Source of the DNA: a virus
IMG/VR virus record: IMGVR_UViG_3300010379_001370
Location: 1-20,791 of that record
Reading direction: 5' to 3' (one strand)
DNA: 20,791 bases
Every line of letters begins with the position of its first letter. Position 1 is the stretch's first letter. Both the position numbers and the translations under genes were made by a program. Positions 1 through 13,591 of the stretch are shown here, one piece after another. The notes beneath the pieces are model-generated. The model was not told the DNA's origin. It worked only from the letters and a program-made list of their open reading frames with translations, and did not search any database.

Positions 1-21
1 CTTACCGCACTTGCCGTGCAT
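1..21 (-). CDS. 5' end of a next gene in the sigma-factor operon (partial)
   Basis: An ATG at bases 21-19 follows an AAAGG Shine-Dalgarno sequence that overlaps the stop codon of the upstream 235-residue gene. Only MHGKCGK is readable before the window ends. The start is supported by the ribosome binding site and the tight operon spacing. The CGKC-like beginning might be a zinc site, but seven codons do not allow a function to be named. Confidence 0.35.
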
Positions 22-27
22 CGACCT

Positions 28-735: not shown

Positions 736-938
736 TGCAGCATTAACTCCGATCCCACCGGAAGCCTGACCGGGTGACCCAGCGCCATCTTGGCCCTGGC
801 CCGCGCTTCCGATTTCGTTCTCGCCTGCACCTCGATGACCTCGAACACTTCCCGGAAGCCCCGCGGCCCCGTCTGCACGAACCCGGCCGGCGCGACCACC
901 CGCCACCTCTTGAACCCGACAATCGACGAGGCTCTCAC
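732..938 (-). CDS. Small unassigned phage protein (68 aa)
   Basis: A GTG at 938-936 overlaps the stop of the preceding gene as GTGA, and its own stop overlaps the next start as ATGA, so both ends are set by coupling. The product is small and soluble. After a beta-rich first half (FKRWRVVAPAGFV, then FREVFEVIEVQA) comes a helix, ARTKSEARARAKMALG. This beta-beta-helix pattern with SEAR..AK.ALG recalls small phage proteins of unknown function. No catalytic motif is seen. An upstream ATG in the same frame would add 14 residues but overlap the previous gene more deeply, so I prefer the GTG. Confidence 0.65.
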   Translation of the reverse strand: MRASSIVGFKRWRVVAPAGFVQTGPRGFREVFEVIEVQARTKSEARARAKMALGHPVRLPVGSELMLQ

Positions 939-1210
939 CGAGCGATGCTCCGATACGACGCCCGCCCCCGAGCCCAGCAACGAATCCTTAGATCCGGCTG
1001 CGGCAGCTCGAACAGCAAACGGTGATAATCAAACTCGATCCACGTGCCCCAGCCACCGACTTGCCATAGATTCCAGGCCCGGAACTGTTCCCACGTCGGA
1101 TGCCTTAGCTGATACGGAGCCCGCGCCGTGCGCTTTCCGAACAGCCGCCCGCGACGCTCTCTCCGCGTCTCTTGCCGCACACCTTCACCATTGCGCCCGA
1201 CATCACGCAT
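935..1210 (-). CDS. Unassigned 91-residue protein, tryptophan-rich centre
   Basis: The ATG at 1210-1208 shares one base with the stop of the sigma-factor gene (TGATG), so translation is probably coupled. The first 30 residues are strongly basic (RRERRGRLFGKRTAR). The central part is aromatic and looks conserved (PTWEQFRAWNLWQVGGWGTW, then EFDYHRLLFELP), probably a small beta-rich domain. There is no transmembrane segment or signal peptide. I do not recognise the family. Being directly behind the sigma factor, it could be its partner or an anti-sigma-like modulator, but nothing in the sequence proves this. Confidence 0.65.
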   Translation of the reverse strand: MRDVGRNGEGVRQETRRERRGRLFGKRTARAPYQLRHPTWEQFRAWNLWQVGGWGTWIEFDYHRLLFELPQPDLRIRCWARGRASYRSIAR

Positions 1211-1809
1211 CAGCCCGCTTTGATGCTAGTCTCGACCGCCACTCGCCGATGCCACCGCGCCGGATCCCAACCAGCCGCTTGGAGTTCGGCCGCGATAATC
1301 GACCGCGCCCGCGCCAGCAATTTTTTCACCGACCGAACGGTAAGATCGAATTCGTTTGCGCATTCGATAATCGACCATGGCGAAAGCCCGTCCAGCCCGT
1401 AGCGCCGCACGACCAGAGTCTGGGAAAGCAGATCGCAACGGTCCAAGGCATCGCGGACCGCATCGGCGATACTGTTCCGGCCCCCCTGCGTACCCACGCC
1501 GGCAATGCCATCTAGCTCGACCGCCGCGCGCCGCACCCCGGTCGGCGCCGCGACCAAACCCGCCGATCGCGCCTTGGCCAGCACCCGCTCGAGCGCCCGT
1601 ATGATGAACTTGCGTGCAAACGCCGAAAACGGTACGTGACAATCTGACCGCATCGGGTCGTAGCGGCCCGACGCAACCCAGATCGCCGTGAGCGCCTCTT
1701 GCCGCCCATCGTCGTATTCGAGCCCGCGCCGTGCGTAGCGTTCCGCAAACCAGCACGCGAGCAAATCGAGCTCAGCAGTCAGCGCGTCGCGCTGCTCGAG
1801 TGTGGCCAT
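1210..1809 (-). CDS. Phage-type sigma-70 family RNA polymerase sigma factor
   Basis: This 199-residue protein has the two core parts of a sigma-70 family factor. Region 2 spans about residues 14-75: FAERYARRGLEYDD, QEALTAIW, RYDPMR and then FSAFARKFI match the core-binding and -10-recognition helices (typical form: YDDLxQEAxxALWxAxxRYDP). Region 4 spans about 117-175, with the helix-turn-helix SPWSIIECANEFDLTVRSVK followed by KLLARAR, which normally contacts the -35 element. Regions 1.1 and 3 are absent or short, replaced by an Ala/Gly-rich linker at about 80-115. The size is that of an ECF or phage sigma. It leads a minus-strand operon and probably redirects host RNA polymerase to element promoters, perhaps late ones. 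No strong Shine-Dalgarno precedes the ATG. Confidence 0.85.
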   Translation of the reverse strand: MATLEQRDALTAELDLLACWFAERYARRGLEYDDGRQEALTAIWVASGRYDPMRSDCHVPFSAFARKFIIRALERVLAKARSAGLVAAPTGVRRAAVELDGIAGVGTQGGRNSIADAVRDALDRCDLLSQTLVVRRYGLDGLSPWSIIECANEFDLTVRSVKKLLARARSIIAAELQAAGWDPARWHRRVAVETSIKAG

Positions 1810-2144
1810 GGGGGTGGATGTCTCTTGATGTGCATCGCCGAGCCACTACCGATTGTCTACCCCTACTATTGCGGCGAGACACCCGGATCGATCCCCTAAC
1901 CGCGACCTTTCCGAGAGATCGGATTGTTATAGTCGGGAAAGGTGTTACAGGCCGAACGCACCCCGGGCAAAAGGCAAGGACGCCTGACCCGGGGAGGCAT
2001 CGCCTCGCAATAGTGAGAGTAGGTGCCGGCCGCCCCGATGGCATACGTACTGAGCGGAACGCCCGGCTATGCCCGGTTCGGACGGGCGAGAGGGGCCAGT
2101 TGGCTTTCCGAATGCTCCCATAAACGGACGCAGCGCGGCCCCAA

Positions 2145-2180
2145 AAACTTTCCCGCTTCTGATTAGAAACGGGAAAGTTT
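2145..2180. repeat. Perfect 11-bp inverted repeat, 14-nt spacer
   Basis: AAACTTTCCCG at 2145-2155 is repeated in reverse complement as CGGGAAAGTTT at 2170-2180. It sits 99 bases upstream of the recombinase start and has the same core (GGGAAAGT) as other copies in this intergenic region. There is no T tract, so a terminator is unlikely. It fits a dimeric protein-binding site. Confidence 0.7.
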
Positions 2181-2245
2181 GCTCGAAAACCGAGCGCGAA
2201 AGCACTAGATTTGCAGGATGTGCCGCGCACCGTCCGAGCAATGTA

Positions 2246-2275
2246 AACCGGAAAGTTAATGGGAACCGGATAGTT
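2246..2275 (+). repeat. Two direct repeats of AACCGGAAAGTT, 18-bp period
   Basis: AACCGGAAAGTT (2246-2257) and AACCGGATAGTT (2264-2275) differ by one base and are 18 bp apart, just before the recombinase start codon at 2279. The second copy covers the place where a Shine-Dalgarno sequence would be, so binding here could autoregulate the recombinase; alternatively these are arm-type recombinase sites. Confidence 0.6.
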
Positions 2276-2278
2276 TCG

Positions 2279-2878
2279 ATGCCGAGCCCACCGCCCATCC
2301 GTCCGCTAGGCGTCCCCCACAACAAGACCCGCCGGCCCGGTGGCGAACACCTGACCGAAGACCAAGTCGAGCGGATTCGCAAAGCCGCCCTCGGACTCGG
2401 CCGGCACGGCCACCGGGACGCAACAATGATCTTGATCGCCTACACCCACGCGCTCCGGGTCGGCGAGCTCGTCCGCCTCCGCTGGTCGCAGATCAACCTC
2501 GAGGCTGGCAAAATCTACATCGAACGGGAGAAGGGATCCATCTCCGGCGAGCACCCACTGCGCGGCGTCGAGATACGAGCGCTCAAAAGGCTAGGCCCCG
2601 ATCGCCAAGGATTCCTCTTCAGGCGGGAGCGAAAAGGCACCGTCGAGCCCATCACCCCGGATGCCTTCCGCAAGATCGTCCTCCGCGCCGCCCAGGCCGC
2701 CGGTCTTGATATCGCAGCACACCCCCACATGCTCCGCCACGCCTGTGGCTACAAGATGGTTAACGATGGCGTCGACCTCAAGATAATCAAAGTCTGGATG
2801 GGACATCAAAACGTCCAGAACACTGATATCTATACGCGACTGGCGTCCAACAAGCTGCAAGGCTTGTGGAAGGATTGA
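2279..2878 (+). CDS. Tyrosine recombinase, catalytic domain only (199 aa)
   Basis: All catalytic residues of a tyrosine recombinase can be placed: Arg60 (HALRVGEL), Lys85 in the beta-hairpin (EREKGS), His150-x-x-Arg153 (HMLRH), His176 (MGHQ) and the nucleophile Tyr185 (DIYTRL), nine residues after His176 as expected. There is no core-binding/SAM-like N-terminal domain, only a short tail before LTEDQVERI, so the size and build resemble FimB/FimE-type inversion recombinases or truncated integrases rather than full phage integrases of 300-400 residues. I chose ATG 2279 over an open-frame extension to 2069 because that extension would translate the repeat-rich region. Likely role: integration/excision of the left element or inversion of a nearby segment. 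A terminator follows about 100 bases downstream. Confidence 0.9.
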   Translation: MPSPPPIRPLGVPHNKTRRPGGEHLTEDQVERIRKAALGLGRHGHRDATMILIAYTHALRVGELVRLRWSQINLEAGKIYIEREKGSISGEHPLRGVEIRALKRLGPDRQGFLFRRERKGTVEPITPDAFRKIVLRAAQAAGLDIAAHPHMLRHACGYKMVNDGVDLKIIKVWMGHQNVQNTDIYTRLASNKLQGLWKD

Positions 2879-2975
2879 TCTAGCGACCCGCCAACAATTC
2901 GTTATCCTGCCTCGGCTACTCCCGCCAGAGGGGACGTACGTACGCCCAAGCGTCCCCAAAGAGTTGTAGCCTTCC

Positions 2976-3021
2976 CGGCGGCAAACCGGCACTCCTCATG
3001 CCCGGCGAGCCGCCGTTTTTT
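2976..3021 (+). terminator. Rho-independent terminator after the recombinase gene
   Basis: CGGCGGC (2976-2982) pairs with GCCGCCG (3009-3015), with an inner CCGG/CCGG stem, directly followed by six T's at 3016-3021. A second, weaker inverted repeat GGGGACG/CGTCCCC lies just before it at 2930-2957. The rest of the 2879-3112 gap shows no gene. The minus operon ending at 3113 converges on it. Confidence 0.75.
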
Positions 3022-3112
3022 CGCGCCCTCCCCTTCCCCGTTGACGACGCGACATGCAGAGCAGGGGACCCCAGTCGGCTTTGCGCGACGCGCACAGTTT
3101 CAACCGAAAAAA

Positions 3113-3373
3113 CTACGCAGATATGAGCGCTTCACTTTGGGATTCCGGCGCGCCGACTCCCAGTAAACCCTCCGTTTTGAAGCGACCCACACCCTGACGC
3201 AACAGCTTGGTCGCGAACTCGGAAATTCGCATGCGCTGCGCATAGGACAGGGACACGATCTGAGTCGCCAGACTTTCGGGAATCGTGACTGTCATTTGCC
3301 GCATCGGTTCCTTAACTGGTTTCTCCGGACCCCTGAGACTCTGGTTTTCCGGTTCCTTGATCTTCCGCGCCAT
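3113..3373 (-). CDS. Probable ribbon-helix-helix DNA-binding protein (86 aa)
   Basis: After a charged, flexible N-terminus (MARKIKEPENQSLRGPEKP) the sequence QMTVTIPESLATQIVSLSYA followed by RISEFATKLLRQGV has the strand-helix-helix pattern of the Arc/MetJ/CopG fold: a beta strand with alternating residues (MTVTIP), helix A starting after PES, and helix B with the SEFATKLL signature. Such proteins bind operators as dimers. The start at ATG 3373 is chosen because GGAGG lies eight bases upstream; it overlaps the end of the upstream gene by about 62 bases. It is the last gene of the minus-strand early operon and may regulate the divergent promoters at 4990-5084. Function inferred from fold pattern only. 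Confidence 0.7.
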   Translation of the reverse strand: MARKIKEPENQSLRGPEKPVKEPMRQMTVTIPESLATQIVSLSYAQRMRISEFATKLLRQGVGRFKTEGLLGVGAPESQSEALISA

Positions 3374-3656
3374 CCGTCTGTCCTCCACCCCGGGATTCTG
3401 GGATCGTTCCCGAGATAGATCGGAATTCCGCCGACGTCGCCTCCATTGCAGAGCCTAGGTCCCCGATCCACTTCGCCAACCGCACCGCCCAATTGATGAT
3501 CTCCGGCTTGCTCTTCTCCCAAAAAAAATCCTGGAGCTCCTCGACCGAAAGCGCCTCAATCTCGACAGTCACCGGCACCTGACACGAGCAATCGCCCCCA
3601 AGAGGGCCCTTAACCTCCAACGCCCGACGATACACCCGCACGAAAAACCCCGTCAC
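3312..3656 (-). CDS. Unassigned 114-residue early protein
   Basis: The GTG at 3656-3654 directly abuts the TAG of the upstream gene. The first 35 residues look like beta strands (FFVRVYRRALEVKGPL, then CSCQVPVTVEIEAL) with a CSC pair, followed by a helical part, SVEELQDFFWEKSKPEIINW and AVRLAKWIGDL. The last 30 residues are Gly/Gln/Glu-rich and overlap the next gene in another frame, so they are probably a disordered tail. No family is recognised. A link to its neighbours as a small early regulator or host-takeover protein is possible but unproven. Confidence 0.6.
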   Translation of the reverse strand: MTGFFVRVYRRALEVKGPLGGDCSCQVPVTVEIEALSVEELQDFFWEKSKPEIINWAVRLAKWIGDLGSAMEATSAEFRSISGTIPESRGGGQTDGAEDQGTGKPESQGSGETS

Positions 3657-4058
3657 CTAACACCTCCGCGCCTGTTGCTCGCGCCACTCCATCGCCTTCC
3701 CCGGCGACGTCCGCCCACGGCCGTCGCACAGATCGCATACGATGAACTCCGAAGGCCCGCTTTCATCCACCGGATCGAGCGCCCCATCGCCCCCGCACTT
3801 CGGGCACAACATTGTTAACCCCGCCACCTCATTATCCACCGGCCATCGCTGCAGCGAGCCCGTCCCGCCTGGCGGCTCCTCAAATTTCCACCGACGCGCC
3901 AACGTCGTCAGCGCTACCAACACTAGCTCGCCTTCACTGATTTGCGCCGAGCCCGCGAACCGCGTCAGCCACGGCAGCCAGCGCGGCGGGATAGGCACCA
4001 GCGCCAGCGCGGGATCGTCCCACCCCGGAAGTCGTACTTCACCCTCCCGCCAATTCAC
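3657..4058 (-). CDS. Protein with DnaJ-like double CxxCxGxG zinc motif (133 aa)
   Basis: The GTG at 4058-4056 overlaps the stop of the upstream gene as GTGA, which rejects a much longer open frame whose first 91 residues are a Gly/Arg-rich shadow of that gene. The N-terminal half (NWREGEVRLPGWDDPALALV to LVLVALTTLARRWKFEEPPG) is unassigned. The C-terminal half carries CPKCGGDG and, about 20 residues later, CDLCDGRG, two CxxCxGxG halves like one zinc unit of the DnaJ cysteine-rich domain; this pattern is frequent in small phage proteins and binds one zinc ion. It ends with a basic tail (EWREQQARRC). It could bind nucleic acid or act as a chaperone-like adaptor; no clear assignment. Confidence 0.7.
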   Translation of the reverse strand: MNWREGEVRLPGWDDPALALVPIPPRWLPWLTRFAGSAQISEGELVLVALTTLARRWKFEEPPGGTGSLQRWPVDNEVAGLTMLCPKCGGDGALDPVDESGPSEFIVCDLCDGRGRTSPGKAMEWREQQARRC

Positions 4059-4735
4059 GTTTCGCCATTGCCTTCCGCAACGACCCTCCCGACCTTCCTG
4101 ACTGCCTCGACGACCAACGCATGCCCGGCCGCCGCCTCGTCCCAACTGGAATAACGCCGCCCGAGCCGATTGTAAACGTCCCACGGACTGATAATCTGCG
4201 TCTCGAACAGCAGCGGCCGCCCGCCCTCGTGCATCTGAACATCCAGCCCCAAGAAATAAGTCGCCACCTCGGCATCGTCGACAAAATCCTGAGCGACCAC
4301 CCGATCCGCCGCTTCGAACCACCGCGCCCACTCCGCTAGATCCTCGACAAGCACCGGCTCATGACCCTCGAGCTTGTATTTGCCGCCCTCTTCTTTTCTG
4401 AGCATCGCCTCACTCCCCCGCCACCCCGCCCCGAAATCCCTTACGATCCGCTCTAGCTCCTCAGCGGACCCGGGACAAGACTTCAGAAACCATGCATAAC
4501 CCCGCTCGGTCGCGCGCTCCATCAGCGCCCCGGCCACACCCGCCTGGTCGCCGGCCGCCCGCGCCGCCATTACCGACAGCACCGCCGCCGCGACCTCGAT
4601 CTCTTCCTCACGCCAGAGCTCGCCCACTAGCTCATCCATCAGCGCCTGCGACGGCATCGTCCGACAGACGCCGTCGGCCATATGCATCGCCCCAAACACG
4701 GCCATAACCAATTCGATCGGCGTCAATGCTTCCAT
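4055..4735 (-). CDS. Unassigned 226-residue early protein sharing a domain with the 10287 gene
   Basis: I do not recognise the full-length family. Residues of about 35-80 (LVGELWREEEIEVAAAVLSV, then MAARAAGDQAGVAG and ATERGY) match the second half of the small plus-strand protein at 10287-10562 in length and key residues (E-x-E, AA-x-VL, GDQ-x-G, RA, Y), so a helical module is shared by the two divergent operons. The remainder is mixed alpha/beta and acidic (EDLAEWARWFEAADRVVAQD, later VATYFLGLDVQMHEGGRPLL). Start: ATG 4735 is preceded by GGTAGG; a GTG one codon earlier is possible. Its stop overlaps the next gene as GTGA. No signal peptide or membrane segment. Confidence 0.75.
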   Translation of the reverse strand: MEALTPIELVMAVFGAMHMADGVCRTMPSQALMDELVGELWREEEIEVAAAVLSVMAARAAGDQAGVAGALMERATERGYAWFLKSCPGSAEELERIVRDFGAGWRGSEAMLRKEEGGKYKLEGHEPVLVEDLAEWARWFEAADRVVAQDFVDDAEVATYFLGLDVQMHEGGRPLLFETQIISPWDVYNRLGRRYSSWDEAAAGHALVVEAVRKVGRVVAEGNGET

Positions 4736-4741
4736 CACAAC

Positions 4742-4939
4742 CTACCTCTCCGGTGGTTCCCGAAATTCCTGCTCCCGCGCCAACCGCGTCAAAGCCTGAT
4801 CGACCAACGTCCCCACATCGCACCGATTGAACACCGCGAAATCCTGCACCCATTTCTTCCATTCGGGACGCCCCCAGATCGTCCCGATCCGCTCGCTCTT
4901 GTGGCCCGATGCCTTCCCCTTGCGGCCCTTTGCAGCCAT
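4742..4939 (-). CDS. Probable small ribbon-helix-helix-like protein (65 aa), first gene of minus early operon
   Basis: ATG 4939 has GAGGTGG at the right distance upstream; earlier in-frame starts would fall in the promoter region. The basic N-terminus (MAAKGRKGKASGHKSER) leads to IGTIWGRPEWKKWVQDFAVF and CDVGTLVDQALTRLARE. A short strand, a helix beginning with PEWKKWV, and a second helix with the xVxTLVDQALxRLA pattern fit a ribbon-helix-helix DNA-binding dimer. As the promoter-proximal gene next to paired palindromes, it is a good candidate for the local repressor or autoregulator. This is inference from fold pattern and position. Confidence 0.65.
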   Translation of the reverse strand: MAAKGRKGKASGHKSERIGTIWGRPEWKKWVQDFAVFNRCDVGTLVDQALTRLAREQEFREPPER

Positions 4940-4989
4940 TACCACCTCGATCCCTGAATGCATTTCCAGCCTCCCCCAACGAATTCGAA

Positions 4990-5018
4990 ATGCTAACCGT
5001 CTGCAGACTAAATCGCAA
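4990..5018 (-). promoter_or_regulatory. Promoter for the minus-strand early operon with palindromic operator
   Basis: Read on the minus strand: -35 TTGCGA (5018-5013), 17-bp spacer, -10 TAGCAT (4995-4990). The spacer holds the perfect 10-bp palindrome GTCTGCAGAC (4999-5008), a plausible repressor site. It lies about 50 bases upstream of the first start codon at 4939. Confidence 0.5.
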
Positions 5019-5053
5019 TGTGACGCCCAGTGGACGTCCAATGGACACCTATC

Positions 5054-5084
5054 TTGCGTCCTCCGGACGCCCATGTATTATACT
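5054..5084 (+). promoter_or_regulatory. Promoter for the plus-strand early operon with inverted repeat
   Basis: TTGCGT (5054-5059) is followed after 16 bp by TATTAT (5076-5081), with the overlapping TATACT (5079-5084) as an alternative -10 at 19 bp. GCGTCC (5056-5061) and GGACGC (5065-5070) form an inverted repeat overlapping the -35 and spacer. Upstream, GGACGTCC and further TGGAC units repeat at 5030-5047. It faces away from the minus-strand promoter 60 bases to the left. Confidence 0.5.
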
Positions 5085-5141
5085 ATCCCTTGGAGGAATC
5101 GGTACCCATCCCCCCGGCGATCGCCGCCAGACAGGACACCA

Positions 5142-5366
5142 ATGCCCAAAGGCAAACCCAAACCCGACCACACGCCAGCCGAGCTCCGACTCTGTTCGAA
5201 ATGCGGCGTCCCCAAACCGCCGTCGAGTTTCTACCACTACCCTTCCACGCGACGTTACTCGAGCCGCTGCCGAGTCTGCTTGAAGGAAGTCAATCGAGTC
5301 CGCGCCGCCGCCTGCCGCGCAACGGCAATCACGGACCCAACCCCCAAACCGCACCCCTGGAGGTAA
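5142..5366 (+). CDS. Small zinc-ribbon phage protein (74 aa)
   Basis: The protein contains LCSKCGVPKPPSSFY and, after about 18 residues, CRVCLKEVNR: two CxxC pairs with the G-x-x-KP-x-x-x-F spacing seen in small phage and plasmid zinc-finger proteins often associated with HNH endonucleases. No HNH catalytic His-Asn-His set is present, so it is a stand-alone zinc ribbon, probably nucleic-acid binding. It is the first gene of the plus-strand early operon, with an ATG about 58 bases downstream of the putative -10 element and only a weak Shine-Dalgarno sequence. The C-terminus is Pro-rich (TDPTPKPHPWR) and probably disordered. Confidence 0.7.
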   Translation: MPKGKPKPDHTPAELRLCSKCGVPKPPSSFYHYPSTRRYSSRCRVCLKEVNRVRAAACRATAITDPTPKPHPWR

Positions 5367-5436
5367 AGGACCCAGGGACGGAAGTTATCCCGCATGGATG
5401 AAAGTCATTTTTCGCTTCCAACACGAGGATCCGCCC

Positions 5437-5757
5437 ATGGCACTAAAAACCCATCCCCGATCCCTGCGACAGGCAATCGACTACATGCGCACCCACCGCC
5501 GCGTGGAGCTCACCATTCCGATTCTCGGCCTCGAAGTCAAACAGCACTGTTTCTTCGCCGAGCTCAGAAACTCCACGCTCTGGTTCGGTGTGATCCGCCG
5601 CTCCAAATGGGGAAAAGCCGACCCCATCTACGGCGATCCGATCGGCGTGCGCATCCACGCCGGCGACGCCGACTCTGAGACCGGAATCACCTTCGGTCCG
5701 TACGGATTCGCCCTAACGCGCGGCCACTTCGTTGCCCGCATCAAATACCTTGGTTGA
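5437..5757 (+). CDS. Unassigned early protein (106 aa)
   Basis: ATG 5437 has GAGG eight bases upstream and is preferred; an in-frame ATG at 5398 would add 13 residues. The protein begins with a helical part (HPRSLRQAIDYMRTHRRVEL) and continues as a likely beta-rich domain (IPILGLEVKQHCFFAELRNS, LWFGVIRRSKWGK, then ITFGPYGFALTRGHFVARIK). There are no metal or nucleotide motifs. It lies second in the plus operon, 13 bases before the next gene. Function unknown. Confidence 0.65.
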   Translation: MALKTHPRSLRQAIDYMRTHRRVELTIPILGLEVKQHCFFAELRNSTLWFGVIRRSKWGKADPIYGDPIGVRIHAGDADSETGITFGPYGFALTRGHFVARIKYLG

Positions 5758-5770
5758 CGAAAGGACCACC

Positions 5771-6106
5771 ATGCAAATAACCCTGCGACCCACCGACCTC
5801 GTGACCCACGACGGCGAGCACTGGTTGCGAGTTTGGCGCGGAACCACCGACTCCGGCATCCACGTCTGCGCCCTCGTGCAAATCCTGGCAGTCGTGAACT
5901 ACGAAGATGCCGGCGCTCTCCTCCACGAGGTTGAGCACGCCATCGGCCCCGACCGCGTCGTGCCCCTCGATTCACTCTGCTGGATCCCCTCCGACCTCAA
6001 TCGCGAGAGCACCCGCGTGAAAAAGCATCACCGTTTCCACTTCGCCGGCCCCGACCCCTATTCCTTCGTCCCCATCCCGAAACGCCCCGAGGAACCCGGA
6101 CCATGA
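5771..6106 (+). CDS. Unassigned early protein (111 aa)
   Basis: ATG 5771 follows AAGGA at a suitable distance; a frame extension to 5732 would overlap the previous gene. The first half looks beta-rich (MQITLRPTDLV, HWLRVWRGTTDSGIHVCALV), followed by an acidic helix (YEDAGALLHEVEHAIGPD). The C-terminus is Pro-rich. LLHEVEHAI superficially resembles an HExxH metalloprotease helix, but it reads HEVEH inside an amphipathic helix with no further support, so I do not call a protease. Its stop overlaps the next gene as ATGA. Confidence 0.65.
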   Translation: MQITLRPTDLVTHDGEHWLRVWRGTTDSGIHVCALVQILAVVNYEDAGALLHEVEHAIGPDRVVPLDSLCWIPSDLNRESTRVKKHHRFHFAGPDPYSFVPIPKRPEEPGP

Positions 6107-6597
6107 GGACCATAAAAGCGCAATCGCTCTGGCAGCCATGGGCCCACTTGATCGCAGTCGGAGCTAAACGCTATGAAACGAGAAACTGGCGCACAGATTA
6201 TCGCGGACCGGTGGCCATTCACGCCGCGCAACACTGGACTGTGAGGATGGCTCTTCAGTGCTACGAAGAGCCGTTTTTCAAGATCCTTTCGCGCGCCGGA
6301 ACCCGGTTTCCGGCTCGGTGTGATCACACAAAGCTCCAAACTCTCGGTCTCGATTTCGGCGCTATCATCGCTGTCGCCGAGCTCGTCGACATCCAACGCA
6401 CCGAGCACATTCTTCCCCAGTTAGGCCCACAAGAGATCGCCTTCGGCGACTTCCGCCACGGCCGCTTTGCCTGGCTATACGAAAACGCTGTCCGCCTCGA
6501 TAATCCGATGCCCTGCATCGGCAAACAACGCCTCTTCAACGCACCACCCGAATTCGCCATCATCGTCGCAACAATCACCTGGAAACCCCGACCATGA
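6103..6597 (+). CDS. ASCH-domain protein (164 aa)
   Basis: The N-terminus IKAQSLWQPWAHLIAVGAKR followed by YETRNWRTDYRGPVAIHAAQ is the hallmark of the ASCH domain (typical form: LSVxQPWAxLIxxGxKxxETRxWxTxYRGxLxIHA), a PUA-like beta-barrel expected to bind modified or structured RNA. The second half (IIAVAELVDI, then FGDFRHGRFAWLYENAVRLD, CIGKQRLF) continues the barrel, including the typical G-x-F-x-W strand and the ending with Pro-x-x-GKQ-x-LF. Length is normal for phage ASCH proteins. It is coupled on both sides by ATGA overlaps. ASCH proteins are common in phages, but their role there is poorly known; RNA binding is family knowledge, the rest open. Confidence 0.88.
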   Translation: MRTIKAQSLWQPWAHLIAVGAKRYETRNWRTDYRGPVAIHAAQHWTVRMALQCYEEPFFKILSRAGTRFPARCDHTKLQTLGLDFGAIIAVAELVDIQRTEHILPQLGPQEIAFGDFRHGRFAWLYENAVRLDNPMPCIGKQRLFNAPPEFAIIVATITWKPRP

Positions 6598-6950
6598 AAA
6601 CCCTGAAACGCCCCAAGCTCAGCCTGATTGCCGCCATGGCCCTTTCCGACCATCTCGCCAAACACGGCGTGCGCCACACCGCCACAGCCATCCTCCACTG
6701 GCAACCCTGGAAGCTCGCCGCCGCCCGGCTGTACGTCCAATGGCAGCCCCAGCGCTCCGTCGGCCGACTCATGTCCTTCAAGACCTGGCTCAAACAACGC
6801 CGCGACCTCCGCTCCTGCAGAATCTGCGGATGCACTCAAGACGACGCCTGCCCCGGTGGATGCTATTGGGTTGACGAGGATCTTTGCTCCGCCTGCGTCC
6901 ACGAGGCCCAGCCCACTAACCCGACGCGCCAGCGAGGGATCTCCCGATGA
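6594..6950 (+). CDS. Zinc-finger protein with CxxCGCT...CPGGCYWV motif (118 aa)
   Basis: Start and stop both overlap neighbours as ATGA. Residues 1-75 are basic and helical (KTLKRPKLSLIAAMALSDHL, GRLMSFKTWLKQRRDLRS). Then comes CRICGCTQDDACPGGCYWVD followed by EDLCSAC. This Cys pattern recurs in many phage proteins and should bind zinc. The protein could be a small nucleic-acid-binding early factor. No catalytic site is visible. Confidence 0.75.
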   Translation: MKTLKRPKLSLIAAMALSDHLAKHGVRHTATAILHWQPWKLAAARLYVQWQPQRSVGRLMSFKTWLKQRRDLRSCRICGCTQDDACPGGCYWVDEDLCSACVHEAQPTNPTRQRGISR

Positions 6951-7177
6951 AGCACCCAAAACTGATCGACTACCTTGCCGGCCGCCCGCGGATGCCCCCC
7001 GTCGATCCCTGCGATGAGGACGCCGACCTCGATGGCCGGCGGCATATCATCGAAAGCTCGCTATTCGCCAACCTAGTCGTCTACGTGTCCCCCGGACTTT
7101 TCCCGATCGGCCAATTGTGCCATCGCCCCGACCCACCCTACACCCTGGCAGTCCTGGACCAATCCCATGACAACTGA
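6947..7177 (+). CDS. Unassigned small early protein (76 aa)
   Basis: ATG 6947 overlaps the upstream stop (ATGA), and the end overlaps the next start at 7167 by 11 bases. The sequence has an acidic start (DPCDEDADLDGRR) and a hydrophobic patch (SSLFANLVVYVSPGLFPIGQ) that is too broken for a membrane helix. No known domain. Kept because it fits the chain of coupled genes. Confidence 0.5.
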   Translation: MKHPKLIDYLAGRPRMPPVDPCDEDADLDGRRHIIESSLFANLVVYVSPGLFPIGQLCHRPDPPYTLAVLDQSHDN

Positions 7178-7463
7178 CACCAAAGCCCAGCCGCAGACGG
7201 AACTGCATATGGCACTACAGAAAGCTTTCGACATCCGAAGGGACGCACGACACGAGCTCGACGCCGCCGCCGCCGACGAGGCCGAGGCTCGCTATGCGCT
7301 CAGAACGTCGGGCCTTTTCAAGGCCCTGAAAACAGCCAAGGCAAACCGCAAAATCATCGAGCTGCGATACCGCGCCGCTTGCATCCGGTCCGAAGACATC
7401 GAAGAAGAAGCCCTGACCGGAAAAACCGGCCTCCCCATCCTCGACGGAGTCGCCCCGCGATGA
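7167..7463 (+). CDS. Predicted helical/coiled-coil early protein (98 aa)
   Basis: Almost entirely helical and rich in Ala, Arg and Glu: LQKAFDIRRDARHELDAAAA, EAEARYALRTSGLFKALKTA, KANRKIIELRYRAACIRSED. Heptad-like spacing suggests a short coiled coil. It overlaps the previous gene by 11 bases and the next by ATGA. Function unknown; an oligomeric accessory protein of the replication operon is one possibility. Confidence 0.6.
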   Translation: MTTDTKAQPQTELHMALQKAFDIRRDARHELDAAAADEAEARYALRTSGLFKALKTAKANRKIIELRYRAACIRSEDIEEEALTGKTGLPILDGVAPR

Positions 7464-7648
7464 CCGCGACAACGCAAGCCTTCCTCGCCCTGCTGGCGAT
7501 CGCCACGGCATTCCTCGGCGCCCTCGCCGTCACCAAACTCACCCAGCTCTTGGAGCAGCGTCAGCAGCCGACCCGCGTCCCGGTACGCGACCCCGACGAC
7601 ACCGACGACTGGCCCGACCCCGACCCCCAGTTGCCACCCATGCACTAG
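7460..7648 (+). CDS. Small single-pass membrane protein (62 aa)
   Basis: ATG 7460 overlaps the upstream stop as ATGA. Residues about 5-25 (TQAFLALLAIATAFLGALAV) form one clear transmembrane helix, followed by a short basic/Gln stretch (TKLTQLLEQRQQPTR) and an acidic Pro/Asp tail (DPDDTDDWPDPDPQ). Topology is probably N-out/C-in by the positive-inside rule. It could be an early membrane protein such as a superinfection-exclusion factor; that is a guess from size and place only. Confidence 0.6.
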   Translation: MTATTQAFLALLAIATAFLGALAVTKLTQLLEQRQQPTRVPVRDPDDTDDWPDPDPQLPPMH

Positions 7649-7692
7649 CGCGTTAGAGTTCTCCTTGGCCAGTGACTTGCTCCGCCAGTTTG

Positions 7693-7727
7693 GAACTGGC
7701 AACCGGCAACTGATCACTGGCAACTAC
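7693..7727. repeat. Five degenerate heptanucleotide tandem repeats (CAACTGG type)
   Basis: GAACTGG, CAACCGG, CAACTGA, TCACTGG and CAACTAC follow one another without gaps. They lie in the only sizeable gap of the plus operon (7649-7799), which otherwise shows no gene. The pattern resembles short tandem heptanucleotide repeats of bacterial intergenic regions. No hairpin terminator was found in this gap. Confidence 0.6.
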
Positions 7728-7799
7728 GGAAGCCCCGCTCGACTCAGTTTGTGGTTGCGAGCCCGACTGAACCGACCGGCAAATGAAAGGATCTTTGCA

Positions 7800-8102
7800 A
7801 TGTTGCCCCTTATTCCGCCCGCCTCTGGCGGACCCGGAGACGATGTCTCCACGTCCCAACCGCGCCGGATCCACATCCTGACCTTCCGCGTCCGCGCCGA
7901 ACCATTGAGCCGCTGCGAGCGACGCGCGAAACACTTCACACCGTCGATGTGGCCGGACTGGACTGACCAGTACCGCTACCACCTCGACAACGGCCCCACC
8001 TGGTGGCCCGATTGGACCGATACCGAATACGCCACGGTCCCCCTCACCGCCGCCGACATCCTGCCCGCGCGCAACCCTCGCACGGAAGGGGGCACGTCAT
8101 GA
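7800..8102 (+). CDS. Unassigned protein with repeated WPDWTD motif (100 aa)
   Basis: ATG 7800 is preceded by AAAGGATC at a usable distance; the longer open frame from 7665 would translate the heptanucleotide repeats and is rejected. After a Pro/Gly-rich N-terminus comes RRIHILTFRVRAEPLSRCER, then an aromatic part in which WPDWTDQY and WPDWTDTEY form an internal repeat about 20 residues apart. No family is recognised. The stop overlaps the next start as ATGA. Confidence 0.6.
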   Translation: MLPLIPPASGGPGDDVSTSQPRRIHILTFRVRAEPLSRCERRAKHFTPSMWPDWTDQYRYHLDNGPTWWPDWTDTEYATVPLTAADILPARNPRTEGGTS

Positions 8103-8389
8103 CGCCCAGCACGATCCCCACAATCCGCCTCGAGGGACGAAGCCTCCCCGTCCAGGAGATTAAGGACCGCTGCTTCGGTGCAGTGAAGTTCTTCGGCCGC
8201 GCCGTAACCGCCGGCGAAATCTGGCGGTTCGTCGACCCATTCCAAACGATCACCGATGAGATCAGAACGGTAACCCTCAACTCCCTGGTGTTCGAACGGC
8301 GCCTCATCGTCGAGCGATTCCATCACACCAAAAACGGAACCTATCAGACCCACACCAGCTACCGCATCGCGGAAGGAGCCCGACCATGA
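8099..8389 (+). CDS. Possible winged-helix protein (96 aa)
   Basis: Both ends are coupled by ATGA overlaps, which fixes ATG 8099 and rejects a 32-residue upstream extension. The sequence AVTAGEIWRFVDPF, then VTLNSLVFERRLIVER and finally a possible wing, GTYQTHTSYRIAE, has the helix-helix-helix-hairpin order of a winged helix-turn-helix. It directly precedes the DUF3987-type replication protein, so a role in replication initiation or early regulation is plausible. This is a fold guess by eye. Confidence 0.6.
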   Translation: MTPSTIPTIRLEGRSLPVQEIKDRCFGAVKFFGRAVTAGEIWRFVDPFQTITDEIRTVTLNSLVFERRLIVERFHHTKNGTYQTHTSYRIAEGARP

Positions 8390-10044
8390 CGAACACCTCC
8401 TCAGTCTTCCGTCGCTTGCTGCTTGGCGCCGACGTCCCGCAAGCGGAAATCGCCGACCTACCCGATCACCTCGCCGATGCCGCGCTCGAGCTCGCCGCCG
8501 TGCCCCGCGATTATCGGCACTCCCGATTCCAGGCCCTCGACCCGGATGTCCAAAACGAAATCCTCGCAGCGCTCGACGACCTCGTCGCCGAGGAGACCAC
8601 CGCCGCGGCTGAACCGCCGCCCTGGCCGCCCCTACGTCTCGACGAAGGGACATCCGTTAAGCCATTCCCGCTCGAAATTCTGCCGGCGCCCGCACGAGCT
8701 CTCGCTGAGTCCGGAGCCGAGTCGATCGGCTGCGCCCCAGACTTCTTTGCCGTGCCCATGCTCGCCGTCGCCGCCGGTGTGATCGGCCGGTCCGCCGTCC
8801 TCCTCCTGAAGCCCGGATATGCAGTCGGAACCACCCTTTGGGCCGCATGCGTGGGAATCCCGTCCGATGGCAAGACGCCGGCACTCAAACCGTGCTCCGA
8901 GCCAATCCATGCCATCGACAAACTCTTGCGCCGCGAGCACCGCAAAGTGATTAAGCAATGGGAGGTACTCTGCGCCCAAGCCTTCGCCGATCGCCAGCCC
9001 CTGCCCCCGCGGCCAAAGCGCCCCAGGATTGACGTCGACGACACCACCATGGAAGCGCTTAACCGCCTGCTCGAGCAAAACCCCCGAGGCCTCGTCATGA
9101 TCCGAGACGAACTGGCCGCATTCATGACCGGCATGAATCAGTACAAGGGCGGTCGAGGAAGCGACCGGGCGATAGCGTGCAAACTATGGTCCGGCCAGAG
9201 AATCGTAACCGACCGCGTCGGCCACGAAAACCAGGAGCCAATCTGTTGCGACGACCCCGCGCTAAGCATCGTCGGCGGCCTCACCGTGCACGGATTGATG
9301 GACCTGGGGGCCGCCAAAGGCCCTAGCGACGGCTTCGTCGACCGCTACCTCTTCAGCTTCCCCGATCTCCGAGCGGTGAGCGCATGGAGCGACCGCGGCG
9401 TCCCGGCGAAACTCATTCGCGCCTGGGCCGATCTGGTGCTCCGACTCTGGAACCGCCCGCTCATAGTCAAGCAACATCAGGCCCGGCCCCTCGCAATCGC
9501 CATGAGCGCAGCAGCCAAGGAAAGGTGGCGACAGCGATACAACGCCCACGTCGCGGAGATGAACGATCCCGAGTTCGACCCAGACCTCCGCGGAAACTGG
9601 GGCAAAATGCGCGAGTACGCCGGTCGCTTCGCACTTGTGCTCACACTACTACACCACGCCGCCGGCGATACCGACCCAGCCGCGGTTCCCGCGATCGAAC
9701 CACAAATCATCGATGATGCTTGGGATCTGGCGGACTATTTCAAAAGCCATGCGCTAAAAACCCACGGCTTGCTGCGGGGAGCCGGGACCCGGCGGGGACG
9801 CGCGGTCACCGCGATAATCGTCTGGCTTCGCACCCAGCGACTCGACCATTTCAGTCTGCGCGATCTCCGCCAGGCCCGCCGTTGGATCGACGACGGCACG
9901 CTCACCGAGGCTCTCACCGAGCTCGCCCAGCGCGGCGTTATCCGCCCCGCCGCCATCGCCGACCCCGCCTCCCGAAACGGCCGCCCCCCGTCGCCAGTCT
10001 TCCACGTGAACCCCGAATTCCTCTCGGGGTTCGAAAATGCCTAA
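8386..10044 (+). CDS. DUF3987-type P-loop ATPase, probable phage replication helicase/primase-like protein
   Basis: This 552-residue protein shows the DUF3987 layout. A disordered leader (1-80) is followed by the entry segment PPWPPLRL...FPLEILPAPARALAES, the helical part DFFAVPMLAVAAGVIG, a P-loop at about 157-164 (GIPSDGKT), a Walker B-like strand ending in acidic residues at about 236-242 (LVMIRDE), and DGFVDRYLFSFP at about 315-326, where Arg320 is a possible arginine finger. The P-loop is the DUF3987 variant followed by Pro (GKTPAL). The last 90 residues look like a winged helix (RRGRAVTAIIVWLRTQ, FSLRDLRQARR, LTEALTELAQRGVIRP). Such proteins are DnaB-like helicase relatives in phages and mobile elements. 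It ends the coupled operon three bases before the large inverted repeat at 10048. Confidence 0.85.
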   Translation: MTNTSSVFRRLLLGADVPQAEIADLPDHLADAALELAAVPRDYRHSRFQALDPDVQNEILAALDDLVAEETTAAAEPPPWPPLRLDEGTSVKPFPLEILPAPARALAESGAESIGCAPDFFAVPMLAVAAGVIGRSAVLLLKPGYAVGTTLWAACVGIPSDGKTPALKPCSEPIHAIDKLLRREHRKVIKQWEVLCAQAFADRQPLPPRPKRPRIDVDDTTMEALNRLLEQNPRGLVMIRDELAAFMTGMNQYKGGRGSDRAIACKLWSGQRIVTDRVGHENQEPICCDDPALSIVGGLTVHGLMDLGAAKGPSDGFVDRYLFSFPDLRAVSAWSDRGVPAKLIRAWADLVLRLWNRPLIVKQHQARPLAIAMSAAAKERWRQRYNAHVAEMNDPEFDPDLRGNWGKMREYAGRFALVLTLLHHAAGDTDPAAVPAIEPQIIDDAWDLADYFKSHALKTHGLLRGAGTRRGRAVTAIIVWLRTQRLDHFSLRDLRQARRWIDDGTLTEALTELAQRGVIRPAAIADPASRNGRPPSPVFHVNPEFLSGFENA

Positions 10045-10047
10045 CCC

Positions 10048-10216
10048 GTTACTCAAAACCCTCAAAACCCTCAAAAGTCCCGGGTTGCAACCAACCATGA
10101 AAAATCGCGGTTTTGACGCTAAACCCGTTCAGCATTAAAGCTATGCGAAAAAAGCGTCAAAAATAGTGCGTGCAACCAACCCGGGACTTTTGAGGGTTTT
10201 GAGGGTTTTGAGTAAC
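10048..10216. repeat. Perfect 40-bp inverted repeat with tandem 9-bp units and nested 10-bp inverted repeat
   Basis: Bases 10048-10087 are the exact reverse complement of 10177-10216. Within each arm CTCAAAACC is repeated twice in tandem with a third partial copy, and the arm ends in CCCGGG. Inside the 89-base loop, TTTTGACGCT (from about 10112) and AGCGTCAAAA (from about 10153) form a second perfect inverted repeat, and TGCAACCAACC occurs as a direct repeat at 10086 and 10171. No gene fits. Possibilities are an iteron-type origin next to the replication gene, a MITE-like insertion with 40-bp termini, or a very long RNA hairpin. I see no clear target-site duplication and no T tract after it. 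Confidence 0.9.
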
Positions 10217-10286
10217 CACCTAGCGTTTTTGAGAACCAGCGTTACCGAGAGCCATATCGCCTTCGGCTTCCTGGAGGCCCGCTGCC

Positions 10287-10562
10287 ATGCGACCGCGAAT
10301 TGAAGTGTCTCTTGAACCCCGAGAGCTCGATGCCATCGTGCGCGAAAGCATCCAGAAAAACCGCGGTGCCACGCGCGAGAGCCAATCCCAGCTCGCCCTC
10401 GACCGGGCGGTGGAGCAACTCTACGACGAAGGTGAACTAGAGCTCGCCGCCATCGTCCTGCACTGTATGGTCGGCCGCATCGTCGGCGACCAGCACGGCA
10501 TCCTTCAAACCTTGCTCCAACGGGCGATCGACCTCCGTTACGATAGATACAACCGAGGCTAA
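10287..10562 (+). CDS. Small helical protein, paralogue of a domain in the 4055-4735 gene (91 aa)
   Basis: ATG 10287 follows GGAGG at about ten bases. The first 35 residues resemble a short strand plus helix (RIEVSLEPRELDAIVRESI). The second half (AVEQLYDEGELELAAIVLHC, then GRIVGDQHGILQTLLQRAID and LRY) aligns without gaps with residues about 35-80 of the minus-strand protein at 4055-4735, sharing E-x-E, AA-x-VL, GDQ-x-G and RA. Function of this module is unknown; duplication within the element or recruitment into two operons are both possible. The 10217-10286 stretch upstream holds no other gene. Confidence 0.7.
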   Translation: MRPRIEVSLEPRELDAIVRESIQKNRGATRESQSQLALDRAVEQLYDEGELELAAIVLHCMVGRIVGDQHGILQTLLQRAIDLRYDRYNRG

Positions 10563-10564
10563 CC

Positions 10565-10777
10565 ATGGGCCAATCGGCCGATCTCCAAGCCGCCTTCATC
10601 CTCGGCTACATGGCCGCCGCCAACCGCTACCAGCCGCCCGGACCGAAGCGAAAGTGCGAGCTCGAGCTGATCGCTGAGGCCGAGGTAATCTGCCAACGCG
10701 ACCAAAATCTCAGACTTCCGCCCGCAGTCATTGGCCGCCGGCAATCCCCTGTTGCGCCTGCAAGAACGGAAAGTTGA
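10565..10777 (+). CDS. Last plus-strand gene of left element, possibly truncated at a junction (70 aa)
   Basis: ATG 10565 lies two bases after the upstream stop. Residues 1-54 (including AAFILGYMAAANRYQPPG and CELELIAEAEVICQRDQN) look like an ordinary small helical protein, whereas the last 16 residues are read from the 3' end of the convergent pseudopilin gene in the opposite strand. A 50-base overlap of this kind fits a gene cut by the element end and running on into host DNA, with the native C-terminus lost. The family is not recognised. An intact gene that merely overlaps is the alternative. Confidence 0.5.
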   Translation: MGQSADLQAAFILGYMAAANRYQPPGPKRKCELELIAEAEVICQRDQNLRLPPAVIGRRQSPVAPARTES

Positions 10778-12230
10778 AGTTGTAGCTGCTTCCATTCTGC
10801 GGGGCGGTCGGGTTGTCGAACGGGACATTGTCGTTGGTGGTGATCTGGCCGCTCCGCGAGAAGACGGTAACTAGGCGGTATTCCCCCTTGATCCGGGGGA
10901 CGGGCGGATAAGTCCCTCCCTGTAGCAGTTGCTGTGGGATGAGTCCGACCGGAAGGGTGGGCCTCGGGTTGGGGTTCGGGTTGGGGATCGGCGCCGTGAC
11001 GTCGGTGCGCTCGGCCAACCAGAAGTGGAAGAACGAGCTGGAGAGCCCGGACGAGGAGGGGGACGAGTAGAGCGTCGTGGTCACGACGGTACCGTCGGGA
11101 TTGACCAGGAACTCGACGTATCCATTGTTCTGATTCATGGACGGCGAGACCTGAATGCTTCCGTTCAGCGCCACCACGGGCAGGCGCGACCGCTCACCAG
11201 TCGTCGACCAGGTCGTCAGATCGATCACAACGCCGGAGGGAAGTGCGATTTCGCGACCCTTGGAGCTGGGAACGGGCCTGCGCGTGATCGCGTAAGGCTG
11301 GTTCAGGAACCCGAGCGTCCCGCCAGGCACGCTGGTCACGGTCTTGCTGACGTCCTGGCCCCCAGCGAGCGAGCCTTGCCACTGCTCGGCCTCCGTCCAC
11401 TCCCCGGCATCATCGACGATTCCATTGAGGTTGTTGTCCACTCCGTCCCACCCGTCGTCGACGAAACCGTCGACGTCGTCGTCCAGGCCGTTGACCAGGA
11501 AAAGGTATTCGACCTGGCGGGTGACAAAGCCACCGTTAGGAAGCGTGTACATGCGCTGAAGTTGCGGCGTGGAGCCCGGCAACCCGTCGTTGACGAACCA
11601 ATCCGGATTGCCACCGGCCGCGGTTGTCGTGATCGGTCCAACCACGGTGTAGGACCGGCCCGCGTTGCCGATCTGGATCTTCTCGCCGACGCGGATATTC
11701 CAAAACCATGATGTCGGCTCGTTGGGCAATCCCGTTCCGGTATCCACGGGGCATTCCTCGATCATCAGGACACTCGGGGCGCCCTGCGCCGCGGCCGGGT
11801 AAGGATACAAGCCTCCTCCGACGATCGGCCAGGGTGGCGCCGTGGCATTTGGGAAGGGCGAGACTCCGGGTTGATCCTTGATGATGCTCACCGCCCCCTC
11901 GCTGTAATCGGGCGCCGGCTCGATCGGGATAAAACGATTGGCGGCCAGCGGAAAGGTCGCATCAAGCATCCCCGTGGTCGGATTGATCCCGCTGAATGCG
12001 GGATCGGGCAATAGCCGAATTCCCGCCGGCGCGCCGCTGTGGATGGCCGAATCATGGGCGCCAACCAAAGCCCCTTGCAGGATCCGCGCCGCCTCGCTGA
12101 CCTGGCGGTGGTTAATTGCCGGCAGCACGACCGGTAGGGCCGCGATGCTCACGACAAGGATGATGAAGATCACTACCAACAGCTCAATCAGCGTAAATCC
12201 GTTCCGCGCCGGCTCTTTTCCGCGATACAT
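10728..12230 (-). CDS. Pseudopilin-like protein with N-terminal methylation motif (500 aa), probable host gene
   Basis: The N-terminus MYRGKEPARNGFTLIELLVV is a classic type IV prepilin/pseudopilin leader: a short basic peptide, cleavage before Phe13 by prepilin peptidase, a Glu at mature position 5 and then a hydrophobic helix (IFIILVVSIAALPVVLPAI). The build recalls GspH-type minor pseudopilins, but 500 residues is far longer than the usual 150-200. The large exported part is beta-rich and contains acidic, possibly Ca-binding loops near residue 250 (DDDVDGFVDDGWDGVDNN, then NGIVDD). Start: AAAGGGG precedes the ATG. It reads opposite to the left element, differs in style from the phage genes, and most likely belongs to the host chromosome. 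Long pseudopilins of this kind are typical of planctomycetes (general knowledge). Confidence 0.85.
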   Translation of the reverse strand: MYRGKEPARNGFTLIELLVVIFIILVVSIAALPVVLPAINHRQVSEAARILQGALVGAHDSAIHSGAPAGIRLLPDPAFSGINPTTGMLDATFPLAANRFIPIEPAPDYSEGAVSIIKDQPGVSPFPNATAPPWPIVGGGLYPYPAAAQGAPSVLMIEECPVDTGTGLPNEPTSWFWNIRVGEKIQIGNAGRSYTVVGPITTTAAGGNPDWFVNDGLPGSTPQLQRMYTLPNGGFVTRQVEYLFLVNGLDDDVDGFVDDGWDGVDNNLNGIVDDAGEWTEAEQWQGSLAGGQDVSKTVTSVPGGTLGFLNQPYAITRRPVPSSKGREIALPSGVVIDLTTWSTTGERSRLPVVALNGSIQVSPSMNQNNGYVEFLVNPDGTVVTTTLYSSPSSSGLSSSFFHFWLAERTDVTAPIPNPNPNPRPTLPVGLIPQQLLQGGTYPPVPRIKGEYRLVTVFSRSGQITTNDNVPFDNPTAPQNGSSYNFNFPFLQAQQGIAGGQ

Positions 12231-12481: not shown

Positions 12482-12530
12482 TTCGACCAACGGACCCCAT
12501 GAGAGCATTGGCTCCTAGCCAATCCCTCAA

Positions 12531-12586
12531 TGGAGCGGAAGGGGCTCGAACCCTCAACCTTCGCATTGCGAACAATAAACGTTCGC
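12531..12586 (-). other. Attachment site: 3' half of a tRNA gene, probably tRNA-Ala(CGC)
   Basis: Read on the minus strand, 12572-12531 gives an anticodon loop TTCGCAA (anticodon CGC), the 3' anticodon strand TGCGA, variable loop AGGTT, T arm GAGGG-TTCGAGC-CCCTT, the 3' acceptor strand CCGCTCC and discriminator A; no CCA is encoded. U70 would give the G3:U70 pair typical of tRNA-Ala. The 5' half (D arm, 5' acceptor) is absent. Just at the break, GCGAAC (12568-12573) and GTTCGC (12581-12586) form an inverted repeat with a 7-bp spacer, the layout of a tyrosine-recombinase core site. This marks one end of the element carried to the right. Confidence 0.75.
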
Positions 12587-12676
12587 GTATTGGACACCCA
12601 ACCCAAAAGAGTTTTTTCTGGTAGGAAGAGGCCAGTTTCGTCTACCGCCTCACTACTCTTTCCCCTTGGGTATCCC

Positions 12677-13591
12677 ATGCCTCCCATCCCTTTCGCCGCC
12701 TTTGCAAGTGATTGTTGGGATCTCTACCGAGGTCCCCGTTACAGCCCCGCGACGACCCGCAAGATCGATCAGATCTTCATCGAGCTCGGCAAGCTGGGTG
12801 TTCGGTCCACCGCGGACCTGACCACCCAGCTCGTCACCGACTATGTATCGGAGCGGATGCTCCGCGTCTCCGTGAATGCAGTTCGCGGAGAGATGACCTA
12901 CCTGAAAGCCCTGATCCATTATGCCTACGACGAGGGCTTCGTGCCCAGTATCCCTCATTGGAAGCGCAGCCAACCCCGCCGAGCCCCCACCACTCGCCCG
13001 ATGATCCACTCCATCGACGAGCTCCGCCGCGTCCTCGATTACCTACGGGCCCGGACCGGGACCTGGGACGGGGCGCGGGTCTACACCCTGGCCTCATTTC
13101 TCTTGCACACCGGCTGCAGGCGAAATGAAACGCTGCTCGGACATCTTGACGACCTAGACCTGGACACAGGCCTTTACGAGGTCGTGGCGCGGACCCGGCT
13201 GAAGACTGAACGGTCCGCCCGGCTAGTCCCACTCCCGCCCGACCTGGTGGAGGACCTCCGGCGCTGGATGCCCCAGGCAGCCTCTGTTTGGCTTTTCCCG
13301 AATCTCTCGCGAACCGGCCCCTGGGTATCAGGCGCGCCGGGCCGCAGGCCCACAGAGCGACTCAGAGCCGCCGGAGACGCCGTCGGCGTGGCCGGCCTGA
13401 CCTGTCAGTCCATGAGGCACTGCTACGCCACCTGGGGCCGCCGGCGATTCGGGATCGATAGCCTGACCATGCGGGATGTCCTCGGCCATACCTCCGAGCG
13501 GACCCACTGGGATTACTACCTCGGCGACGAGGAGCGCCACGCCCTGGTCGCGGCCGTCCGCGGGGTGAGCTACCGGCCTAATCCAGCATAA
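12677..13591 (+). CDS. int: Phage-type tyrosine integrase (304 aa)
   Basis: The protein has an N-terminal SAM-like core-binding domain (about 5-100; SPATTRKIDQIFIELGKLGV, ending LIHYAYDEGFV) and a C-terminal catalytic domain. Catalytic residues: Arg148 (HTGCRRNE), Lys176 (TRLKTERS), Arg247 (QSMRHCYATW), His271 (LGHTSE) and Tyr280 (THWDYY), nine residues after His271. The usual first His of HxxR is Gln244, an unusual change. ATG 12677 is chosen because the upstream 49 codons translate the tRNA remnant. Gene and attachment site are 90 bases apart, the usual arrangement for integration into a tRNA gene. It is presumably the integrase of the right element. It is followed by a GCGGAGG/CCTCCGC hairpin at 13592-13612, without a T tract. 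Confidence 0.9.
   Translation: MPPIPFAAFASDCWDLYRGPRYSPATTRKIDQIFIELGKLGVRSTADLTTQLVTDYVSERMLRVSVNAVRGEMTYLKALIHYAYDEGFVPSIPHWKRSQPRRAPTTRPMIHSIDELRRVLDYLRARTGTWDGARVYTLASFLLHTGCRRNETLLGHLDDLDLDTGLYEVVARTRLKTERSARLVPLPPDLVEDLRRWMPQAASVWLFPNLSRTGPWVSGAPGRRPTERLRAAGDAVGVAGLTCQSMRHCYATWGRRRFGIDSLTMRDVLGHTSERTHWDYYLGDEERHALVAAVRGVSYRPNPA

Follow-up and report, generated by a model that had tools for sequence, protein, structure and literature searches.

In the SaPI/PICI systems, the replication origin lies immediately 3′ of rep and has an AT-rich region with a set of iterons on either side, a layout that a published survey held to be unique to PICIs (PMC6092414). In pRN1, a stem-loop located 3′ of the replication gene is needed for replication, and its structure is kept rather than its sequence (PMC4234260). 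Cch2, the predicted initiator helicase of SCCmec, uses its C-terminal domain to bind direct repeats that lie behind its operon, where a putative origin is placed (PMC7581432). With regard to DUF3987 itself, a primase survey presents the family only as predicted helicases (PMC5862659), and the PICMI report states that deletion of the satellite gene prim, which is modelled by DUF3987 together with DUF5906, lowers the copy number (PMC10803314). Neither paper describes a DUF3987 origin. A search of the open-licence literature for DUF3987 together with iterons or origins found no paper, and an earlier report elsewhere is possible.

The locus described here lies in a virus record from IMG/VR that is 20,791 nt long and is referred to, as a whole, as the window; it consists of a large inverted repeat directly behind a DUF3987 gene. 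It resembles the SaPI/PICI origins (PMC6092414, PMC7581432) in its position immediately 3′ of the initiator-helicase gene, in its two iteron sets (three units per arm) flanking an AT-rich region, and in the C-terminal domain of the initiator, which binds DNA in those systems and in the window is a predicted winged helix that may do so. On the other hand, the SaPI systems employ the SaPI Rep family, whereas the window encodes a DUF3987 protein with an MCM-like predicted fold; DUF3987 elements use strict 9-bp tandem units in inverted sets; and their layout is also found in full prophages and plasmids of several phyla, not only in phage-inducible islands. The origin layout thus appears to be broader than PICIs. 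The window as a whole, which may span more than one element, also differs from a PICI in holding a tape measure protein and tail proteins.

Similarly, pRN1 has a large stem-loop just 3′ of its replication gene (stem and loop of 21 and 58 nt, compared with 40 and 89 nt in the window), a protein that ends in a winged helix, and a structure that is kept as the sequence varies (PMC4234260). By contrast, it is described as having no iterons, whereas the arms in the window are iterons, and its protein is a fusion of a primase-polymerase and an SF3 helicase. Cch2 would share the reading of downstream repeats but belongs to another helicase family. The PICMI gene prim shares the DUF3987 model, but that report describes no origin and infers a rolling-circle-like replication (PMC10803314). 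It is very probable that the segment in the window is a replication origin of a known general layout, belonging to a helicase family that had not previously been linked to this layout.

The inverted repeat and its iterons

The DUF3987 gene (8386–10044, plus strand) encodes a protein of 552 aa. Because its stop codon ends at 10044, the left arm of the inverted repeat starts after three bases, as the original prediction had noted. The two arms (10048–10087 and 10177–10216, neither assigned to a strand) proved complementary at 40/40 positions in a sequence comparison, with 89 nt between them, and the further repeats that had been predicted inside this segment (10048–10216) were all recovered. Each arm carries tandem 9-bp units, which in the left arm can be read as CTCAAAACC at 10052 and 10061, followed by CTCAAAAGT. 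When mismatches are allowed, there are three units per arm: a left set on the plus strand (10050–10076), comprising TACTCAAAA (2 mismatches), CCCTCAAAA and CCCTCAAAA at 10050, 10059 and 10068, and a right set on the minus strand (10188–10214), comprising TTTTGAGGG, TTTTGAGGG and TTTTGAGTA (2 mismatches) at 10188, 10197 and 10206. The nested 10-bp inverted repeat (TTTTGACGCT at 10111–10120 and AGCGTCAAAA at 10153–10162) forms a further inverted pair of diverged iterons, TTTTGACGC on the minus strand and GCGTCAAAA on the plus strand, each 2 mismatches from TTTTGAGGG/CCCTCAAAA. The 11-bp direct repeat TGCAACCAACC marks the inner edges of the arms (10086–10096 and 10171–10181, the first copy being on the plus strand). 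An outlying iteron-like site, TTTTGAGAA (2 mismatches; 10227–10235, minus strand), may be due to chance.

The spacer (10088–10176, unstranded) is a candidate melting region: it is 57% AT, compared with 37% for the window and a fraction of 0.36 in the flanks, and equally AT-rich 89-nt windows amount to 0.07%. The inverted repeat is far beyond chance, as had been predicted: the arm pair is the only inverted repeat of at least 14 nt with a span below 500 nt in the window, and the fold energy of the segment is 14 SD below that of dinucleotide shuffles. It is also unlikely to be an ordinary terminator, as had likewise been claimed, for the loop is long and the right arm is followed by CACCTAGCG, without the T-tract that follows the short GC-rich stem of an intrinsic terminator. 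The segment has no Rfam match at the gathering score, and searches for a tRNA or tmRNA were negative. A 9-bp period can arise from overlapping coding sequence (GFE/TLK repeats), because the units are translated in loci L008 and L088; this origin of the period is possible elsewhere, but the segment in the window lies outside any convincing gene.

The DUF3987 protein

DUF3987 (Pfam PF13148, E 5.6e-53) is the sole Pfam domain in the window protein, which contains no primase domain by Pfam and matches PHROG 2373, “DNA helicase.” Neither the MCM family profile nor a sequence search of solved structures gave a match. A structure model built from 37 sequences (mean pLDDT 88.8, pTM 0.80), which replaced an earlier one from 9 sequences (pLDDT 67), was used for structural searches. 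All of the best 50 rows were MCM chains or MCM-containing complexes, and the top match had a Z of 17.3 and an rmsd of 3.8 Å over 269 residues. Foldseek agreed, with weak E-values (best 1.3e-3), and also listed RuvB and ClpX. The computation thus predicts that the core of the protein adopts the MCM AAA+ fold and suggests an initiator helicase.

The tail of the model shows the order H469-484, E488-490, H491-497, H503-515, E519-521 and E538-541, from which residues 469–541 (9790–10008, plus strand) are predicted to form a winged helix-turn-helix, the candidate reader of the iterons, which would bind DNA. Several of the MCM matches reach into the MCM C-terminal domain, with poor overall rmsd. A predicted AAA+ core followed by a winged helix is the likeness to the archaeal and eukaryotic MCM proteins; in contrast to these, the window protein has no detectable match to the MCM sequence family, and DUF3987 forms a distinct family in bacterial mobile elements, with iterons of its own.

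Recurrence of the architecture after DUF3987 genes

A blind search for CCCTCAAAACCCTCAAAA across about 85,000 species genomes yielded 52 loci, seven of which contain a DUF3987 gene (L063, L071, L073, L074, L079, L088 and L089). These derive from Zavarzinia, Bartonella, a methanotrophic endosymbiont, a deltaproteobacterial MAG, Sphaerotilus, a Pirellula-labelled MAG and Brucella pituitosa, and the distance from the end of the DUF3987 gene to the iterons is about 45–245 bp, with an overlap in L088. In the Bartonella vinsonii locus (L071, 2500–5799), a single iteron cluster is preceded by two tandem DUF3987 genes. Iterons likewise stand by the 3′ end of the DUF3987 gene on the provirus contig L008. 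Many of the remaining loci appear to be chance matches in coding sequence, and most of the 38 viral matches to a 17-mer are one unrelated coding sequence. Two other viral or genomic loci are recorded as separate observations: L023 (2072–2180), an otherwise unrelated viral contig of 45% GC, contains ~12 CTCAAAACC units in tandem, and in L035 (110–300) CCCTCAA/TTGAGGG units are clustered directly 3′ of a 614-aa gene without a Pfam match, which may represent the same layout in another helicase-like family.

In the converse approach, DUF3987 genes were sampled by family only, from Planctomycetota, Alphaproteobacteria, Gammaproteobacteria and Verrucomicrobiota. The exact iteron CCCTCAAAA was not enriched in 120 such genes and was rejected as a general DUF3987 signal; only the architecture is enriched. 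An ungapped inverted repeat with a best score of at least 12 was found in 33/118 post-stop regions, compared with 2/118 and 4/110 controls. Under a stricter definition, which requires two tandem 9-bp dimers in inverted orientation at −30 to +330 of the stop codon, 36 of 119 DUF3987 genes were positive, compared with four of 232 control segments taken in-gene or at +450 (Fisher p 6e-15) and none of 30 integrase genes. The positives comprised 12/24 alphaproteobacterial, 16/33 gammaproteobacterial, 4/16 verrucomicrobial and 4/46 planctomycete genes, although the planctomycete proteins are the nearest to that of the window among those sampled. When the motif-found loci were pooled with this set, 60/161 were positive (6/3220 shuffles). 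Of 26 strong direct repeats, 23 had a 9-bp period. In a separate set of 38 viral DUF3987 loci, which were collected through protein similarity, 26 were positive (controls 0/38 and 1/37), a rate that is not representative of all DUF3987 genes because the query came from the motif-bearing subfamily, some of these contigs being near-duplicates as well. Computation thus places the element after DUF3987 genes as a conserved position.

About 60–70% of DUF3987 genes have no detectable element. A C-terminal G..RP pattern failed to predict its presence, and the idea of a C-terminal motif was therefore dropped; VapE-like helicases showed no clear element in three readable cases. No element occurs downstream of yfjI of E. 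coli K-12. In the CP4-57 prophage region of that strain (L236), the interval between alpA and yfjI, upstream of the latter, contains TGCTATTTCCGCC...AATAGCGGAATAGC, which is an inverted repeat of the iteron type seen in Gammaproteobacteria, and yfjI may belong to a rearranged or decayed replication module.

The units differ among elements (CTGACAGAA, TTGCTAAAG, CCGACAAAA, CCCTCAAAA and CGCACAATT), and 34 family-sampled cases fit one degenerate 9-bp register, ~YGMNARAAC read circularly, with 4.69 bits in the register alignment compared with 3.18–3.52 in column-permuted controls. Iteron similarity correlates with protein similarity (Mantel r 0.40 for the core and 0.39 for the C-terminus, p 0.0005), which fits a gene and a site that move and diverge together, whether through co-adaptation or through common descent. 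The spacers are AT-richer than their flanks across the group (0.54 vs 0.48, p 0.001). For the 12 bp beyond the iterons, complementarity reaches only 0.45 (0.35 in a 9-bp misregister). The window, with its long perfect hairpin, is therefore an extreme case and not the rule, and an extended hairpin was rejected as the conserved feature. The perfect 40-bp complementarity exceeds what iterons need and is not general among the relatives.

Several plasmids show related structures. In RHOAph (10.7 kb, Rhodovastum), an inverted repeat of 24 bp, perfect and enclosing a 63-nt loop, starts at the DUF3987 stop codon, and the annotation includes a capsid gene and parA; in Salinibacter pSR11 (11.5 kb), a 46-bp inverted repeat with 9-bp TTGCACTT units lies at the DUF3987 stop codon. 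In both of these small plasmids, DUF3987 is the only recognisable replication gene, which indirectly supports autonomous replication by the gene and the origin together. Iterons are also present in Acinetobacter pYUSHP14-1 and in Bartonella pBT01, which additionally encodes RepC, and Priestia p3 has scattered GTCTACG-type repeats. Among the DUF3987 genes of cyanobacterial plasmids, three of four are without an element; the remaining cyanobacterial plasmid has a 22-bp inverted repeat, and a Sulfitobacter plasmid a 17-bp inverted repeat, in either case without 9-bp units.

A candidate origin and its alternatives

The suggestion of a replication origin, one of those made originally, gained strong support from this comparison, since the architecture recurs after DUF3987 genes in several phyla while its sequence varies. 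The segment is probably the replication origin of its mobile element (a phage or satellite), read by the DUF3987 protein that is encoded just before it. Iteron arrays elsewhere also act in copy control and partition, which favours a role other than that of an origin, in which the iterons would be bound by DUF3987 or another protein of the element for autoregulation, partition, incompatibility or packaging. The presence of parA on small plasmids with the element points the same way, and arrays 3′ of a gene could control the downstream transcript. Such a role is nevertheless rather unlikely: the element tracks the helicase gene and is absent after integrase genes, it matches the proven PICI origins in position and in having two arms around an AT-rich spacer, and a site for autoregulation would be expected before the gene, not behind it. 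It is still less likely that the segment acts at the 3′ end of the DUF3987 transcript as a structural RNA, a transcription terminator or a hairpin that stabilises the mRNA. The extremely stable fold and the position straight after the stop codon would suit such a function, but Rfam recognised nothing, the loop and the sequence behind the right arm are unlike those of a terminator, and integrase genes are without the element. Moreover, what the relatives keep is 9-bp units in inverted sets, with the modest extra complementarity given above, rather than the hairpin as such; thus, the structural RNA proposed originally finds weak support.

Perfect arms are also what would be expected of a young insertion, and the segment had been considered as possibly MITE-like; a recent inverted duplication without function would look the same. 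The copy-number search suggested along with this idea, which was run on the record and on 2.9 million viral contigs, returned a single near-identical record (L003), with no further copy in the window and no dispersed copies, and a blastn search with the segment gave nothing useful among phages and plasmids. Related elements have it at a fixed position relative to the gene, and unrelated ones show the same architecture in the same place with a different sequence, all of which makes an insertion or duplication highly improbable. Perfect arms in a metagenomic contig could, finally, result from an assembly fold-back, which had been named as a potential refutation. This is extremely improbable because the second IMG/VR contig, L003, carries the structure identically: it is 99.98% identical to positions 1–12038 of the window (3 mismatches over 12,038 bp), and the spacer between the arms is unique and has the same orientation in both contigs. 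In addition, elements of this kind occur in isolate genomes and in complete plasmids. The sampled planctomycete genomes contained no close relative of the window.

For the origin, a feasible mechanism may be that the two 9-bp iteron sets, which flank the AT-rich spacer in opposite orientation, are bound by the C-terminal winged helix of DUF3987, that the MCM-like AAA+ domain forms a hexamer on each arm, and that the spacer melts and two helicases depart in opposite directions. Binding, melting, hexamer loading and replication are steps that we infer from SaPI/PICI Rep, SCCmec Cch2 and pRN1 ORF904. In eukaryotes, inverted sites load opposed MCM hexamers, and the inverted arms would likewise load two opposed hexamers. 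On a wider view, the balance tips slightly towards DUF3987 proteins being widespread bacterial MCM-like initiator helicases, each with its own 9-bp inverted-iteron origin behind the gene; together they would make up a class of replicon, found in phages, satellites and plasmids, that has gone unrecognised.

The value of the locus lies in the rule that it reveals rather than in a single hairpin. DUF3987 is a common phage, satellite and plasmid protein of unknown function; a cognate origin found by position alone would give the family a testable function, provide a rule for locating origins in thousands of mobile elements, and offer a natural series of diverging initiator–iteron pairs. If a bacterial MCM-like helicase does read its own origin by a winged helix, it would offer a compact model of how opposed helicases are loaded.

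Three other features of the window deserve mention. An imperfect palindrome of the AAACTTTCCCGC...GCGGGAAAGTTT type (2145–2180) adjoins the first tyrosine-recombinase ORF (2069–2878). Right where the second tyrosine-recombinase ORF (12530–13591) begins, GGTTGAGGGTTCGAGCCCCTTCCGCTCCA (12531–12572, minus strand) resembles the 3′-half of a tRNA and is likely to be an attachment site, although ARAGORN and Rfam detect nothing in this region. Between the replication module and this second integrase, the minus strand (10728–12230) encodes a protein of 500 aa, either host-derived or phage-borne, whose N-terminus carries a methylation motif of the prepilin type.
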